Positions 2,884 to 22,564 of a DNA stretch of 53,445 nt are shown here, in pieces. This DNA is from Lachnospiraceae bacterium. Lineage in GTDB: Bacteria; Bacillota; Clostridia; Lachnospirales; Lachnospiraceae. The stretch spans positions 1 through 53,445 of the forward strand of contig SVED01000007.1 of NCBI GenBank assembly GCA_015057515.1, given 5' to 3'. A program made the translations under genes and the position numbers. Under the pieces are notes generated by a model. It saw only the letters and a program-made list of their open reading frames with translations, was not told the DNA's origin and made no database searches. The number at the start of each line of letters is the position of its first letter. Position 1 is the stretch's first letter.

Positions 2884-5112
2884 CTATTTTTTATCTACGT
2901 AATCGTACTTAAATACCATTACTGAAAGTGGTGGAATAGTGAGACTCACTGAGTAGTCCATACGGTCGCAACGCTGATTAATCGCCTGCACAACTCCATT
3001 TACTCTGCCTTGTCCACCAAACTCCTCTGCATCGGAGTTAAGTATCTCTTCGTACTTAGTAAGACAAGGTGCACCAACCATATGAGTTGTTCTCTCAACC
3101 GGAACAAAGTTGCATACAAACATAAGTTGCTCCTTTGATGTCTTACCCCTTCTAATAAATGCTACAATACCATCCTCAGCATCATCACACTTAATCCATT
3201 CAAATCCTACTGGTTCGTTGTCATTGTAGTACATTGCATCATAGGTAGTATAGATATTGTTAAGTGCTTTTACAAAGTTTTGCATCTTGCTGTGAAGTGG
3301 CTGGTCAAGTAAAAACCAGTCCAAACTTCTTGCCTCACTCCACTCCCTAAGCTGAGCAAATTCCTGACCCATGAAAAGAAGCTTCTTTCCAGGATGTCCA
3401 TACATAAAACCATAAGCCGCTCTAAGGTTTGCAAACTTGTCCACCTCAAAGCCTGGCATCTTGTTGAGCATTGAACACTTAAGATGTACAACCTCATCAT
3501 GAGATATAACCAGTATGTAGTTTTCTGAGTATGTATATGTCAAACTAAATGTCAATCTGTTGTGGTTAAATGATCTGAAGTATGGATCCAGCTTCATATA
3601 CTCTAAGAAGTCATTCATCCAACCCATATTCCATTTAAAGAGGAAACCAAGTCCCTTAAATGCAGCTGGTGCAGTAACTCCTGCCCAGGCTGTTGATTCT
3701 TCTGCGATAAGATATGCTCCCGGATTACGCTCCTCCATAACACTGTTAATATTCTGTAAAAGTGCTATAGCATCGTAATTCTCATTTCCACCATCCTTAT
3801 TTGGTAACCACTGCCCATCCTGCTTACCATAATCTAAGTAAAGCATAGATGCCACCGCATCAACTCGAAGAGCATCTATATGGAACTTCTCTACCCAGAA
3901 TAATGCATTTGCAGTAAGGAAGTTTGCAACCTCTGTTCTACCATAATCAAATATATATGTTCCCCAGTCAGGGTGTTCTCCTCTTCTGGAATCCGCATGC
4001 TCATAAAGTGGCATACCATCAAATCTTCCAAGACCATGGGCATCTCTTGGGAAATGGGCAGGAACCCAGTCAAGAATAACACCTATATTAATTGAATGCA
4101 TATAATCCACAAAGTACATAAAATCTTCTGGGGTACCATATCTGCTGGTTGGAGCGTAGTAATTGGTTACCTGATATCCCCATGAACCATCAAATGGATA
4201 CTCTGCAACACCCATAATCTCAATATGAGTATACCCCATATCCTTAACGTAAGCACCTAACTGCTTTGCCATCTCTCTGTAATTATAGAAACCGAAGTCT
4301 GAATCCTCAATCTCCTTTTTCCAAGATCCCAAATGGACCTCATAAATGGACATAGGTTGTTTCAGTCTGTCAACTCTGGAGTACTTGTTCCTATTTGTTA
4401 TCCATTCTGTATCTTTCCATTTGTAGTTTCTAAGGTCTGCCACCACGTTAGCATTATCAGGTCTAACCTGTGCCTGATTGCCATATGGATCAGCCTTAAA
4501 TAAAATATCTCCTGTACGGGTAAGTATCTGGAACTTATATACTGCTCCCGGCATAACGTCAGGGATGAAGAGTTCATATATACCTGATGCTGGATGAATC
4601 TGCATTGGGTTTAGGGCTCCGTCCCACATATTGAAATCTCCCACAACGCTGACTCTTCTTGCATTTGGGGCCCAAACTGCAAAATATGTACCCTTCACAC
4701 CGTCAATAGTCATAGGGTGGGCACCCAATTTTTCATATATGTCATAATTTTTACCTTCCGCAAATAGATAAACATCATAATCTGTTATAATTGAATCAAA
4801 GGCATAACAGTCAGCCGAAGTCACTGTGCTGCCATCATGATACTCAGTCACGAAACGATACTTATTTCCTTTGAACTTTTTCTTTTCAAAGAATATTCCG
4901 TAAAAGCCCTCTCCTAAGGCTTCCATAGGAATAGGATTTTTGCCTGTTGTTGAGGCAACAGCCACTGATTTTGAATGTGGTTTGTATGCAGTTATAACCT
5001 GTCCTTCACCATAATCATGAACTCCAAGCAAATGTTTAGGTGCATTTATCTGCCCCTTTATGAGTTCATCATACAAAACCCAGTTGACCCAGTTTTCTAA
5101 TCTTTTTTTCAT
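2884..5112 (-). CDS. glgB: 1,4-alpha-glucan branching enzyme
   Basis: Introduces alpha-1,6 branches into glycogen (GH13). The 742-residue protein has an N-terminal CBM48-type module (YFAVWAPNARRVSVVGDFNMW), then the catalytic barrel. Catalytic residues are recognisable: Asp about 418 in LRVDAVASM, Glu about 468 in IAEESTAW and Asp about 539 in ISHDEVVH; the C-terminal beta domain follows. The start at 5112 (MKKRLENW) is chosen because GGAGG lies just upstream; the reading frame extends 26 codons further but into the intergenic region. It is 19 bp downstream of a DUF1461-like gene, so the two probably share a promoter. No other glycogen genes are in the window. Confidence 0.96.
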   Translation of the reverse strand: MKKRLENWVNWVLYDELIKGQINAPKHLLGVHDYGEGQVITAYKPHSKSVAVASTTGKNPIPMEALGEGFYGIFFEKKKFKGNKYRFVTEYHDGSTVTSADCYAFDSIITDYDVYLFAEGKNYDIYEKLGAHPMTIDGVKGTYFAVWAPNARRVSVVGDFNMWDGALNPMQIHPASGIYELFIPDVMPGAVYKFQILTRTGDILFKADPYGNQAQVRPDNANVVADLRNYKWKDTEWITNRNKYSRVDRLKQPMSIYEVHLGSWKKEIEDSDFGFYNYREMAKQLGAYVKDMGYTHIEIMGVAEYPFDGSWGYQVTNYYAPTSRYGTPEDFMYFVDYMHSINIGVILDWVPAHFPRDAHGLGRFDGMPLYEHADSRRGEHPDWGTYIFDYGRTEVANFLTANALFWVEKFHIDALRVDAVASMLYLDYGKQDGQWLPNKDGGNENYDAIALLQNINSVMEERNPGAYLIAEESTAWAGVTAPAAFKGLGFLFKWNMGWMNDFLEYMKLDPYFRSFNHNRLTFSLTYTYSENYILVISHDEVVHLKCSMLNKMPGFEVDKFANLRAAYGFMYGHPGKKLLFMGQEFAQLREWSEARSLDWFLLDQPLHSKMQNFVKALNNIYTTYDAMYYNDNEPVGFEWIKCDDAEDGIVAFIRRGKTSKEQLMFVCNFVPVERTTHMVGAPCLTKYEEILNSDAEEFGGQGRVNGVVQAINQRCDRMDYSVSLTIPPLSVMVFKYDYVDKK

Positions 5113-18256: not shown

Positions 18257-19594
18257 CTACATACCTTCAATAAGTACATCAACATCGTTTCTACCAAACT
18301 CATATAAGAGTTTACGTATCTCATTGATAGTGTAATCATCAGCATGTATCTCAACTTTGTCAAAAAGCTTGTCCACGTAACCACACCATTTTTCATATAC
18401 CTTTACCAAATCCTGTGTACTTGGCTCTTTAAGCTTAGCCTGTGTAGTATAGTTACGATTACCTGAGGTAAGTATCTCCTTCATGGACACAGCTCTTGGC
18501 TCTATGCCGTAAGCAATGTATTTGATTTCTTCTGTTCTAACTAATGCACAGTCATACATTTCCATAATAAGTTCCTCAATACAATCCTTAGGAACATTAA
18601 AATGATGGTGGTACATCTCTGCTGTCTTGTAGGATGGTTTTTCTGCCACATCCATTTTGTTAAACCAATAAAAATCATCGGATGGTGAAACAAAACTCTT
18701 TCTCGGTTTATGACGACCACCTGCAGAATGACTTACCGACTCTTGATATGATGGATTAGTCATAGCTGCACCTAAAGCAACCGCCTCTTTAACCGACTGA
18801 TCAAGTGCTTCATCTATGACTTGATTTGAGTTATAAGAGTTGTCCGAAAATGCACTATCAGCAAAGGCACTGTCAACAAATGCGCTATCTTCCATAGGTG
18901 CCACTGGTTCTTCTGCAAAGGCACTGTCTTCTACTGCAGTTGCTGGTTCCTCAACAAAAGCACTGTCCTCTACTGTAGCTGCTGGCTCCTCAACAAAGGC
19001 ACTGTCCTCTACTATAGCTGCTGGTTCCTCAACAAAAGCACTGTCCTCTACTGTAGCTGCTGGTTCCTCAACAAAAGCACTGTCCTCTACTGTAGCTGCT
19101 GGCTCCTCAATAAAAGCACTATCCCCTACAGGCATCTCGTTTTTGTCTTCAGATTCTTCAGCATTTAAAATAGCATCAAAAGCGCTATCCATAGCCAAGT
19201 CAATAGTTATAGAATCCGGACCAACATCTACATCATCAAAAGCTGAATCTAAATTATCAATCTCCTCTTCCTCATCTAAAACATCAGCAAAGGCACTGTC
19301 TATTGGCGCTGACTTTGCAAAAGCACTGTCTGCTTCTGCAAAAATACTGTCTTCATCCTCAAGCGCATCCTCCATCTTTGATACGGCGCTATCTAATGTT
19401 GCAAAATCATCGTTAACAACCGCATCCTCATCCTTAAGGAATAAATCATACTCATATCCATCTTTTTCCTCATCAAAGTCATCCTCATCGTCCTTCTTTC
19501 TATTAACCACAAGCGTAATAGTTAGGACTATTAACAACAAAAGAAAAATAGCTATAAAAATACCATATATAATTGCAATTGTGCTTCCACTCAT
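18257..19594 (-). CDS. Membrane-anchored acidic protein with tandem DSAF repeats
   Basis: I do not recognise this 445-residue protein. It has one N-terminal membrane segment (about 6-31) followed by KKDDEDDFDEE, then an acidic low-complexity region (about 35-270) with 13 exact DSAF tetrapeptides. Six lie in perfect register as 13-residue units of the form DSAFVEEPAATVE (39-bp tandem DNA repeat, about 18890-19125), and three more are packed as DSAFVDSAFADSAF. A compact C-terminal region (about 315-445, from FYWFNKMDVAEKP to the end) is non-repetitive, rich in Trp/Tyr/His and probably folded. By charge rule the C-terminus is cytoplasmic. The design suggests a membrane tether with a multivalent linear-motif linker. 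Repeat number may vary between strains. Confidence 0.85.
   Translation of the reverse strand: MSGSTIAIIYGIFIAIFLLLLIVLTITLVVNRKKDDEDDFDEEKDGYEYDLFLKDEDAVVNDDFATLDSAVSKMEDALEDEDSIFAEADSAFAKSAPIDSAFADVLDEEEEIDNLDSAFDDVDVGPDSITIDLAMDSAFDAILNAEESEDKNEMPVGDSAFIEEPAATVEDSAFVEEPAATVEDSAFVEEPAAIVEDSAFVEEPAATVEDSAFVEEPATAVEDSAFAEEPVAPMEDSAFVDSAFADSAFSDNSYNSNQVIDEALDQSVKEAVALGAAMTNPSYQESVSHSAGGRHKPRKSFVSPSDDFYWFNKMDVAEKPSYKTAEMYHHHFNVPKDCIEELIMEMYDCALVRTEEIKYIAYGIEPRAVSMKEILTSGNRNYTTQAKLKEPSTQDLVKVYEKWCGYVDKLFDKVEIHADDYTINEIRKLLYEFGRNDVDVLIEGM
18880..19130 (-). repeat. 39-bp tandem repeats encoding DSAF units
   Basis: About six units of 39 bp, each encoding a 13-residue block starting DSAF. Adjacent units differ by only a few bases (for example tactgtagctgctggttcct versus tactatagctgctggttcct), so the array is recent or kept homogeneous by recombination. 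It could change length by slippage without shifting the frame. Confidence 0.9.
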
Positions 19595-19690
19595 AAATAT
19601 ACCCAGCCTTTGCTAAAATTATTATCAAAATGATGTTTAGACATCCAAATGTTAGTATACTAAAAATCCAAAGAATAATCAACTATTGTG

Positions 19691-19719
19691 TTGTAAATTC
19701 CTTTTTATTGGGTTATAAT
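19691..19719 (+). promoter_or_regulatory. gltX promoter
   Basis: TTGTAA (19691-19696), 17 bases, TATAAT (19714-19719), giving a leader of about 30 bases with AAAGGGAG before the ATG. No room for a T-box leader. Confidence 0.75.
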
Positions 19720-19756
19720 CTCAAAAGATAAAATTCGTACAAAAGGGAGTTGTATT

Positions 19757-21205
19757 ATGTCAAAAGTTAGAACTAGATTTGCCCCAAGTCCAACAGGAAG
19801 AATGCACGTTGGAAACTTAAGAACAGCATTATATGCATACCTCATCGCTAAGCATGAGGGTGGTGATTTCATTTTAAGAATCGAAGATACAGATCAAGTT
19901 AGAGAGGTTGAAGGTGCAGTAGATATTATTTATAGAACTTTAGCGAAAACTGGTCTTTTACACGACGAAGGTCCTGACAAAGACGGTGGCGTTGGTCCCT
20001 ATGTACAAAGCCTACGTCAAAGTCAGGGTATTTATTTAGAATATGCGAAAATGTTAGTAGAAAAAGGAGAAGCCTACTATTGTTTCTGTGACGAAGAGCG
20101 TCTTAACAGTCTTGTTACCGAACTAGAAGGAAAAACTATTTCTCGCTATGACAAGCATTGTCTCAACCTTTCAAAGGAAGAAGTAGAAGCAAATTTGGCA
20201 GCAGGAAAGCCTTATGTCATTAGACAAAACAACCCATTAGAAGGTACTACTACTTTTAATGATGAATTGTACGGTGATATTACAGTTCAAAATGAAGAGC
20301 TTGATGATATGATTCTCATTAAGTCAGATGGATTTCCAACTTACAATTTTGCAAACGTAGTTGATGACCATCTTATGAACATTACTCATGTCGTTCGTGG
20401 AAACGAGTACCTTTCTTCTTCTCCAAAATACAATCGTCTTTACGAAGCATTTGGATGGGAAGTTCCAACTTACATTCATTGTCCTCTCATAACTGACGAG
20501 ACTCACAAAAAGCTCAGTAAAAGAAGCGGACATTCTTCTTTTGAGGATTTACTAGAGCAAGGTTTCTTAACTGAGACTATTATTAACTTTGTTGCTCTTT
20601 TAGGATGGTGCCCAGATGATAATCAGGAGATTTTTTCACTCGAGGAGCTTATCAAGGTTTTCAATTATAAAAATATGTCAAAATCACCAGCTGTTCTTGA
20701 TATGACAAAACTCAAATGGATGAATAGCGAATACATTAAGGCTATGGATGATGAACTTTTCTATGAGATGGCTCTCCCTTATATCAACGAGGTTATCTCA
20801 AAGCCTATGGACACAAAGAAAATTGCTTCTATGATTAAATCAAGAATAGAAGTTTTCACAGACATTAAGGACCAGATTGATTTCTTTGAAGCTGTTCCTG
20901 AGTACTCTATTGATATGTACACTCACAAAAAAATGAAAACTAATGCAGAGAACTCCCTTACTCTTTTACAGGAAGCTTTACCAGTATTAGAAACTATGGA
21001 TTCCTTTGATAACGATTCTCTTTTCGAAGCACTCTCCGCTTTCGCCAGCGAGCACGAATACAAAACAGGTTTCGTAATGTGGCCTCTACGTACTGCTGTT
21101 TCTGGCAAGCAAGCCACTCCAGGTGGAGCCACTGAGCTTATGTCAGTTCTTGGCAAAGAAGAAACCTTAGCCCGCATCAAAGCAGCCATAGCAAAGTTAA
21201 GCTAA
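19757..21205 (+). CDS. gltX: Glutamyl-tRNA synthetase
   Basis: Charges tRNA-Glu (and often tRNA-Gln in organisms using the transamidation route). The 482-residue class I enzyme begins [20 protein letters not shown], with the HIGH box as HVGN, has the FRYD-like [18 protein letters not shown] segment and the KMSKS loop as [10 protein letters not shown] near 252. A helical anticodon-binding C-terminus follows. The start has a good AAAGGGAG site. The stop codon (21203-21205) falls inside the left terminus of a 779-bp palindromic element that also provides a terminator hairpin. Confidence 0.97.
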
Positions 21206-21311
21206 GCCATACCTGTTACCTACGCCCCTGCCAAAGCTTCAGAGTTTGACATAGGCACAGGCATAGGAAGTAAACCTGGCTCGATTTAGGTGTCACAAAC
21301 TAAAAAATCCC

Positions 21312-21352
21312 AAAAGAACATACCACTAAGTATTGCTGGTATGTTCTTTTTT
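21312..21352 (+). terminator. gltX terminator in the left palindrome arm
   Basis: AAAAGAACATACCA (21312-21325) pairs perfectly with TGGTATGTTCTTTT (21337-21350) around an 11-base loop, followed by more T. A strong intrinsic terminator on the plus strand, about 110 bp after the gltX stop. Confidence 0.85.
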
Positions 21353-21825
21353 ATATGTTTTATTTTTGACTACGTAGTATTCTACAACATATGTCAAATA
21401 ATTTCTTTGCAACTTTACGGATTTAAGTAATCCTACGGTTCGCGCTTTCGATGTTTGATTGGCGTGCCACTTCCAAAACTCACGTGCCGCAAGAACTTGC
21501 TGGGTGGATTTTTTTGACAACTAGCTTGTACCAAATATCAAGTTTTTATCAATTGCGATGAAGGCACCGCGGGAGCGATGTCTGAGGTACGAGTTCGCGA
21601 GAGCGGTGCCCTATCAAACATCGCAATTGTAAAAACTTAGATATTTGCGCAAGCGTAAAGTTGCAAAAAAATCCACCCAGCAAGTTCTTGCGGCACGCTC
21701 AGACAGTTGTACGTGGCACGCTTTATCGAAAGCGTCTGCACCTAGGATTACTAAAAACCCTAGTTGTCTGCAGAAATTATTTGACACATATTGCAGAATA
21801 CTACTTAATCTAAACAAGCATTAAA

Positions 21826-21866
21826 TATAAAAAGAACACACCAGCAATACTTAGTGGTATGTTCTT
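21826..21866 (-). terminator. HD-gene terminator in the right palindrome arm
   Basis: AAGAACACACCA (21832-21843) pairs with TGGTATGTTCTT (21855-21866), one mismatch. On the minus strand the stem is followed by TTTTTATATT. It is the mirror copy of the left-arm hairpin. Confidence 0.8.
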
Positions 21867-21976
21867 ATAAAATATTCTTAACTTGGTGACACCTAAATCG
21901 AGCCAGGTTTACCTCCTATGTCTGTGTCCATATCAAACTCTGAAGCTTTGGCAGGGACATAGGTAACAGGTATGGC

Positions 21977-22564
21977 TTAGTTTAACTCATCCAGAGTTTT
22001 TGAGTAGGCTGGGAGGAAATCCTTTACAAAATCAAAGACTTCCGGAAGCTCCTTTGATAAATCTCTTAAGGTGTTTTCTGTAGCCTCCTTGGCTTTCACA
22101 AACTCTCTGTTACCAGTTTTTTCCTCCTCCATGCACTTAATCATAGCAGAAAGCTTATCTGCTGCTTTGACAAGTTTCCATTCGTAAGAATAGGCATCTG
22201 TTTTGAAAAAGATATTCTGATAGGCAGCCCGTAGGTCTTCAGGAAGCTGGTTTAATAAACTTTGATTAGCTTCGTCCTCCAATGACTTAAAAGCTTCCTT
22301 TATAGATTTGTTGTAATATTTTACCGGTGTCGGCATATCACCAGTTATAATCTCTGATGCATCGTGATAAATACCTATCATAGCCGCCATATTAGCATCT
22401 AGGGTTTTGCCATATCTGGTGTTACCTATAACGCAAAGTGCATGAGCAATCATGGAAACATCTAAAGCATGCTCCGACAAATTCTCAGGTCGCGTATTTC
22501 TCATAAGAGCCCATCTCTCAATATATTTCATTCTGGCTATGGTTGCATAAAAATTGTAACCCAT
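21977..22564 (-). CDS. HD-domain 5'-deoxynucleotidase (YfbR-like)
   Basis: A 195-residue HD-superfamily phosphohydrolase. The opening (FYATIARMKYIERWALMRNT, then ENLSEHALDVSMIAHAL) closely follows E. coli YfbR, a dNMP 5'-nucleotidase. Metal ligands are visible: the His of SEHAL, the HD pair in GIYHDASEIITGDMPTP and a later Asp in VKAADKLSAMIKCMEE. It probably trims deoxyribonucleoside monophosphates. The start has GGAGG 7 bases upstream, overlapping the end of ftsH (2-bp gap), so it is cotranscribed with ftsH. Its stop codon lies in the right terminus of the palindromic element. Confidence 0.9.
   Translation of the reverse strand: MGYNFYATIARMKYIERWALMRNTRPENLSEHALDVSMIAHALCVIGNTRYGKTLDANMAAMIGIYHDASEIITGDMPTPVKYYNKSIKEAFKSLEDEANQSLLNQLPEDLRAAYQNIFFKTDAYSYEWKLVKAADKLSAMIKCMEEEKTGNREFVKAKEATENTLRDLSKELPEVFDFVKDFLPAYSKTLDELN

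Follow-up and report, generated by a model that had tools for sequence, protein, structure and literature searches.

The long palindrome between gltX and the adjacent HD-phosphohydrolase gene in the window (the whole stretch of 53,445 nucleotides analysed, from the Lachnospiraceae bacterium contig SVED01000007.1) has at its centre a dispersed repeat core, and nearly every copy of this core is the centre of a palindrome built from the DNA of its own site, including terminators, stop codons and sometimes coding ends. The core is probably (at a rough probability of 0.57) a non-autonomous mobile hairpin found at the 3' ends of genes, which on folding primes synthesis by template switching and so mirrors the flanks; here we infer both the insertion and the fold-back.

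An inverted-repeat search of the window and a chained scan both confirmed the near-symmetrical palindrome with one centre given in a preliminary description. The chained scan returned 21202-21980 with a 32-nt middle as the sole palindrome in the window with a score of at least 40, and the inverted-repeat search placed its real extent at 21195-21987, from the last gltX codons, across both stop codons and into the last codons of the HD gene, as nested inverted repeats around a single centre (Table 1). The perfect 34-bp arm and the middle of about 32 bases reported earlier were both recovered, as were the terminal arms described as 95 bp at about 90% identity, although these are longer (114 nt at 89%). 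The two halves of the 779 bp share 78% identity (self-match, minus strand). No palindrome of that score was present in one block shuffle of 841 kb from five genomes (single bases, 200-base blocks). When folded as RNA, a check the preliminary description had proposed, the 779 nt are far more stable than 20 shuffles (-446.8 versus -183 kcal/mol, sd 7), lying 36 standard deviations lower.

The neighbouring genes, gltX (PF00749, PF19269) and a YfbR-like HD phosphohydrolase (PF12917), are convergent, with both stops inside the palindrome. At its borders the two native gene ends resemble each other over a short stretch (gltX AGTTAAGCTAA, HD gene AGTTAAACTAA), and a border likeness is also seen at the copy G009_C38 (AGGAAATATA). 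The left and right arms of the window copy are 84% identical over 200 columns. No promoter or terminator came out of an automatic scan of 21100-22080; its terminator search accepts only loops of 3-8 nt, and the hairpin behind gltX has one of 11 nt. Elsewhere in the window, 18257-19594 (minus strand) encodes a protein of 445 amino acids without a Pfam match; its N-terminus looks hydrophobic by eye, and it contains tandem DSAFVEEPAATVE-type repeats.

Table 1. Features of the palindrome and its core, in window coordinates.
Feature	Position	Strand	Size and identity	Basis
Left locus-specific palindrome arm (gltX last codons, stop, downstream DNA)	21195-21388	+		Arm repeats
Arm pair	21195-21308/21874-21987		114 nt, 89%	
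Arm pair	21314-21351/21829-21866		38 nt, 97%	
Terminator-like hairpin behind gltX (T run)	21314-21351	+	12-bp stem, 11-nt loop	By eye
Arm pair	21364-21406/21772-21814		43 nt, 86%	
Core, dispersed repeat family 1 (read as two nested imperfect hairpin units)	21389-21781	+		Genome searches, copy alignments
Outer alpha module	21406-21485	+		Module alignment; model R1 match 21406-21483 (sequence itself in model)
Arm pair	21483-21516/21664-21697		34 nt, perfect	
Variable stem 2, left strand (pairs with 21666-21697)	21486-21515	+		Majority identity 0.63 across copies
Inner beta module	21516-21587	+		Sequence reading and unit comparison
Arm pair	21532-21560/21619-21647		29 nt, 83%	
Inner alpha module (homologous to outer alpha, opposite orientation)	21588-21665	-		Model R1 match 21589-21667, minus strand (sequence itself in model)
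Variable stem 2, right strand	21666-21697	+		Inverted-repeat search and unit comparison
Outer beta module (limits approximate)	21698-21773	-		Copy comparison
Right locus-specific palindrome arm (HD-gene downstream DNA, stop, last codons)	21782-21987	-		Arm repeats, genome search
Mirrored terminator-like hairpin, HD-gene side	21829-21866	-		Arm pair, 97%

With the 779 bp as query, a search of the genome that contains the window (G000, 84.9% complete, 2.15 Mb in 117 contigs) showed that the part near 21389-21781 recurs elsewhere whereas the outer arms do not, the left arm (query positions 1-184) having no other match anywhere in that genome. The 779 bp had been taken as one element; it is instead a core of about 393 bp, encoding no evident protein, inside locus-specific inverted flanks that are single-copy in the searched genome. 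By blastn the core was found in three of 37 genomes of the genus, with ten copies in G000, 12 in G033 and six in G009, so that the alternative of a single copy with no homologue does not apply. All three carriers are metagenome-assembled genomes (MAGs; 85-87% complete). Both arms are present in 22 of these 28 copies, the other six being cut at a contig end or close to one; additional, more diverged matches to the alpha module lie within the same three genomes. An exact 18-base motif gave 15 stretches in one genome per species of 84,980 species, a set from which the window's own records were possibly excluded. Twelve of them are in two Lachnospiraceae MAGs from water-deer gut (RGIG8967 and RGIG8516), and the remaining ones, one each in Anaerobiospirillum, Sinomicrobium and Alkalimonas, were taken to be chance.

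Copies of family 1 lie at gene 3' ends, and between convergent genes more often than gene orientation predicts: 12 of 21 are between convergent genes, nine between tandem genes and none between divergent ones (ORFs ≥ 100 amino acids; one copy had no left ORF), against a background of 37 convergent pairs in 271 (ORFs ≥ 80 amino acids, sampled G000 and G033 contigs). Long palindromes are not a general habit of the genus, since the scan found one in 400 kb of the complete genome G005 and none in 80 kb of G030 or 40 kb of G026; the G000 and G033 contigs in this sample were chosen for holding copies, which biases their densities upward.

As judged from its sequence, the core consists of a pair of homologous units, each an imperfect hairpin, with one lying inside the other in opposite orientation. 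Its inner half repeats the outer half inverted: in hand-chosen rows the alpha modules align (GCAACTYTACG ... CGATGTTTGATT ... AACTC), and by eye the inner left strand resembles the outer beta module (GACAACTAG ... TGTCTGAG). An alpha arm is paired with a beta arm in all 22 two-armed copies, each of them under about 490 bp, and two like arms occur in none. As this asymmetry is always kept, free conversion between arms cannot act inside the modules, and selection must be added. The outer unit occurs alone in two short copies (G009_C189 and G033_C134b).

The flanks differ from locus to locus but mirror each other within each. When the left flank of each copy was compared with its own reverse-complemented right flank, 23-200 columns aligned at 74-95% identity, and in 21 of 22 family-1 copies, a set chosen by the core alone, the own left/right score was higher than any cross-copy score. 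The exception, G000_C62a, scored 16.1 with itself and 17.3 with another copy. With 220-nt flanks one cross-copy pair (G000_C80 and G033_C59a) scored 80, probably because of shared gene sequence. In 40-nt flanks of the 22 copies the inverted own-flank score was 18.5, and there was no excess of direct repeats (mean 5.36 for own and 5.52 for cross-copy flanks), a comparison too coarse for duplications of 2-4 bp. At 20 of 34 facing gene ends the mirror's limit is no more than 20 nt away from the facing stop codon, a raw count with no null model. In addition, the convergent genes around G000_C62c (L049, G000:C62 near 23.2-23.7 kb) have similar C-terminal coding ends; this may be a mirror reaching far into coding DNA or a pair of tail-to-tail paralogues.

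These observations could be accounted for as follows. A factor recognising the hairpin would move or copy the core to gene ends. During copying of the element the nascent strand would fold back at the base of the hairpin, and its 3' end would copy its own flank, mirroring that flank onto the other side. A short homology, in many cases close to the stop codon of the other gene, would then let synthesis return to the normal template. Fold-back copying of this kind would double a single terminator and keep the variable stems complementary, and selection on coding ends would bound the mirrored tract.

Alternatively, the core may insert into the centre of palindromes that already exist, such as terminator hairpins or older palindromes, in the manner of stem-loop-targeting insertion sequences, and the flanks would be the split target. 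This would explain the locus-specific inverted flanks, the preference for terminators and the nesting of unit within unit, and IS1272 is described as targeting inverted repeats without target-site duplications (PMC5678879). To compare filled and unfilled sites, the same gene end was read in sister species for 15 copies, and the junctions given here are a minimum. A long palindrome was present at six of 35 fetched sister loci: L177 is G000's own family-1 copy, and L164, L166, L176, L184 and L185 hold another long palindrome at or near the site, so that a palindrome may sometimes have been there first. Against this, at least six clear unfilled junctions hold one short terminator-like hairpin and no element, with the neighbour or following sequence kept, and the palindrome scan found no long palindrome at their loci. 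These are the sites of G033_C36 (in G000, L171, and in G009, L172), G033_C88 (in G009, L165), G033_C81 (in G009, L169), G033_C81b (in G009, L180), G033_C74 (in G009, L167) and G009_C38 (in G000, L183).

Three of these sites favour duplication of the flanks over insertion into an old palindrome. At G033_C36 the core has the terminator found in G000 to one side and, to the other, a terminator that is diverged but whole, not half of one. At G033_C88 and G009_C38 an inverted copy of the coding end of one gene lies behind its neighbour; that coding end is conserved as protein in relatives, where the copy is absent directly behind the neighbour (two and one relatives compared, respectively). Insertion into pre-existing palindromes thus appears unlikely. 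That the flanks are split terminators was rejected because of the whole terminators on both sides of G033_C36.

Sister species also differ in which palindrome they carry. The site of G033_C88 has a plain terminator in G009 and palindromes in G030; at the junction of G009_C203, G000 has a family-2 palindrome (see below) and G033 a third one, and at that of G033_C74, G000 has family 2. At a glycogen-phosphorylase-like gene (named by eye) the element is found in both G033 and G009, with outer stems that differ and yet are palindromic in each; if the insertion is a shared one, this points to ongoing concerted change. At L175 and L162, short mirrored stretches (TTTCTCATAATGCATTTTAT and similar) lie beside terminators at places where a sister species has a full copy; these are deletion derivatives or the outer part alone.

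A role in RNA was also considered. The core could be a functional structured RNA, maintained by selection as a bidirectional terminator, an insulator or a stabiliser of 3' ends, its copies being duplications of a useful part and not selfish. Its position at gene 3' ends, the terminator-like hairpins seen by eye in several centres and flanks, the conserved loop motifs and the strong covariation all agree with this. A consensus structure over 18 full copies comprises 118 pairs, with 96.7% of cells paired; both sides have changed at 49 of the 118 pairs, a value reached in none of 500 shuffles, the structure being derived from the same alignment. Changed cells number 200 on both sides and 41 on one side. 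Covariation of this strength is what a conserved secondary structure predicts, but copying of arms could give the same signal. G-U pairs make up 3.4% of standard pairs; this scarcity, judged without a control RNA family, fits arm-to-arm copying or a selected DNA hairpin, as stepwise compensation in RNA should leave more such intermediates. The inter-unit stem keeps its complementarity at a majority identity of 0.63-0.64, and the longest stem (helix 15, 34 pairs) hardly varies. Hand-picked loop motifs have a majority identity of 0.88-0.99, and high conservation is limited to them: over all columns, conservation is 0.81 for unpaired and 0.89 for paired positions. Conservation of the loops suggests that the hairpin is recognised, as DNA or as RNA, and it may be what a mobilising enzyme acts on.

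Other evidence speaks against selection for an RNA. Sister species have different palindromes, or just a short hairpin, at the same junctions, so these places do not depend on any particular sequence. By eye, the mirror copy of the terminator next to G033_C59b seems degenerate. The scan of 21100-22080 was empty, and no Rfam family reached the gathering level at ten loci. Matches of the window stretch all fell below the gathering score; one of them, to MIR5048, was rejected as just a long hairpin. The suggestion of a structured RNA or hairpin role is supported in part, by the conserved loops and the strong covariation, and we consider selection for RNA function an improbable origin of the repeats. 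Scarcely credible is a joining of inverted copies by short-read assembly, the artefact raised in the preliminary description: although the carriers are fragmented MAGs with six of 28 copies breaking at or near contig ends, the flank arms are 5-26% diverged, the stems are compensated, different genes lie on either side, and the pattern recurs at many loci, including those in assemblies that are 97-100% complete (G030, G028, G036 and G156).

The layout is not confined to family 1. At the gltX-HD junction of G033 there is another palindrome of different sequence, family 2, which is marked by the motifs AAACCGTTTGA and GAGACGAGCGA (loci L087, L147:52-534 and 4212-4635, L166, L185 and L230-L249) and has matches in 19 of the 37 genus genomes, in some as one weak match. 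With two mismatches allowed in author-chosen motifs, 17 of 24 family-2 loci have four motifs arranged as beta-, alpha+, beta+, alpha-, or the reverse complement of this, with an alpha matching the other strand as well in six of the 17, and seven are incomplete; by eye, several copies are centred on a terminator-like hairpin. The nested two-unit layout is common to at least two families of the genus that differ in sequence. The flank test was passed by 17 of 22 family-2 loci scored as holding a detected palindrome, two of the 24 (L240 and L241) having been dropped because no palindrome was found. Of the five failures, L236-L239 scored higher against another copy than against themselves, probably because they share outer sequence, and L242 was perhaps mis-anchored.

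A sequence model of the alpha module matched nine of the 37 genus genomes and four of 397 sampled from the bacterial family; these counts are lower bounds, as searches of the bacterial family scored two blast candidates per genome, or eleven for the model. The four are G000 itself, G156 and G452 from another genus (at least 11 matches each) and G345 (one weak match). All nine G156 loci lie within palindromes of 550-668 bp with locus-specific outer arms, and all nine, scored like the family-2 loci because they hold a detected palindrome, passed the flank test, with flanks anchored by model coordinates. In G452 one of ten loci lies in a detected palindrome, the other nine being cut short by contig ends. 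Downstream of gltX in G030 there is a 586-bp palindrome with diverged alpha modules (L088:943-1528), indicating that the gltX end bears palindromes in several species of the genus; a palindrome scan behind gltX found long palindromes in L087, L111 and L100 and none in L106, L107 and L112. A possible third family is represented by L122:6247-6545, L100:2974-3295 and L164, palindromes by scan with short hairpins having TCCATG-type loops near the centre (by eye), and L104 has similar motifs with no palindrome by scan. A new class of bacterial mobile hairpin, in which spreading through fold-back DNA synthesis leaves an inverted and not a direct target duplication and makes convergent intergenic regions palindromic from stop to stop, can be put forward only tentatively and is rather doubtful.

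Candidate enzymes and sources were sought for the mobile hairpin. A RAYT domain (Y1_Tnp, PF01797) was found in none of the three original carriers, whose 85-87% completeness leaves room for a missing contig, and a RAYT was rejected as the mobiliser on this ground; Y1_Tnp is present in eight of the 37 genus genomes, only one of which (G004) is among the nine with the alpha module. No autonomous transposon partner with shared terminal inverted repeats was seen; the 22 two-armed copies are all shorter than about 490 bp. A phage or plasmid origin was rejected, as the plasmid and phage collections gave no match and viral contigs no exact pattern. Loss of SbcCD, as a reason for the survival of the palindromes, was likewise rejected: SbcD is above the curated cut-off in eight of 25 genomes searched, including G000 and G033, the other 17, including G009 and G156, having weaker matches only. 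In two genomes a family-1 copy lies about 2 kb or less from the SbcD gene (G000:C35, sbcD match 530-1261 and truncated copy 2903-3049; G033:C81, sbcD match 18975-19721 and copy 20482-20947), by chance or as a shared old site.

Instability is the expectation for long palindromes in bacteria, yet those described here are dispersed, have been mirrored afresh from site to site and, in at least two carriers, occur together with an SbcD gene. Should the fold-back reading prove true, these loci are natural records of bacterial template switching, and inverted target duplication is a testable signature of movement. It would also mean that compensated stems can arise by copying and not by selection on RNA, and would caution against accepting RNA function as proven by covariation.

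No description of these elements was found in open-licence papers. The preliminary description had proposed foldback or MITE-like mobility, which fits in that the core is dispersed, free of protein genes and present or absent at the same junctions in sister species, but no excess of the direct duplications of MITEs was found. Family 1 is REPIN- or MITE-like as a small, dispersed, non-autonomous hairpin, yet tested features of each were not found (a RAYT domain and an excess of direct duplications, respectively). REPINs are roughly 100 bp in size. REPINs and BIMEs are described as REP doublets mobilised by RAYTs, which are Y1 transposases (PMC3116915), with a GTAG or CGTC tag beside each hairpin as a feature of the REPIN/RAYT system (PMC3733652). 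Family 1 resembles them in being non-coding, dispersed, extragenic and non-autonomous, and its two homologous, oppositely oriented units recall the inverted hairpin doublets, but they are much longer and nested in one hairpin; unlike REPINs it is about 390 bp long and has locus-specific mirrored flanks, and its three carriers gave no Y1_Tnp match. Among bacterial MITEs and stem-loop repeats are ERIC, Correia and NEMIS. A total of 92 stem-loop families are reported in PMC2267715. With these, family 1 shares its small size, dispersal, palindromic form and lack of genes, but it is longer, shows no excess of direct target-site duplications and has flanks that join the palindrome. The association with inverted repeats without target-site duplications recalls IS1272, which carries a transposase gene whereas none is evident here, where the flanks look duplicated and not replaced. 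Template switching, described as making and keeping hairpins, there for stems in RNA genes, by copying of the nascent or complementary strand (PMC8794818), similarly creates or repairs stems by strand copying; here the mirrored tracts extend for about 23-200 columns beside a dispersed repeat.
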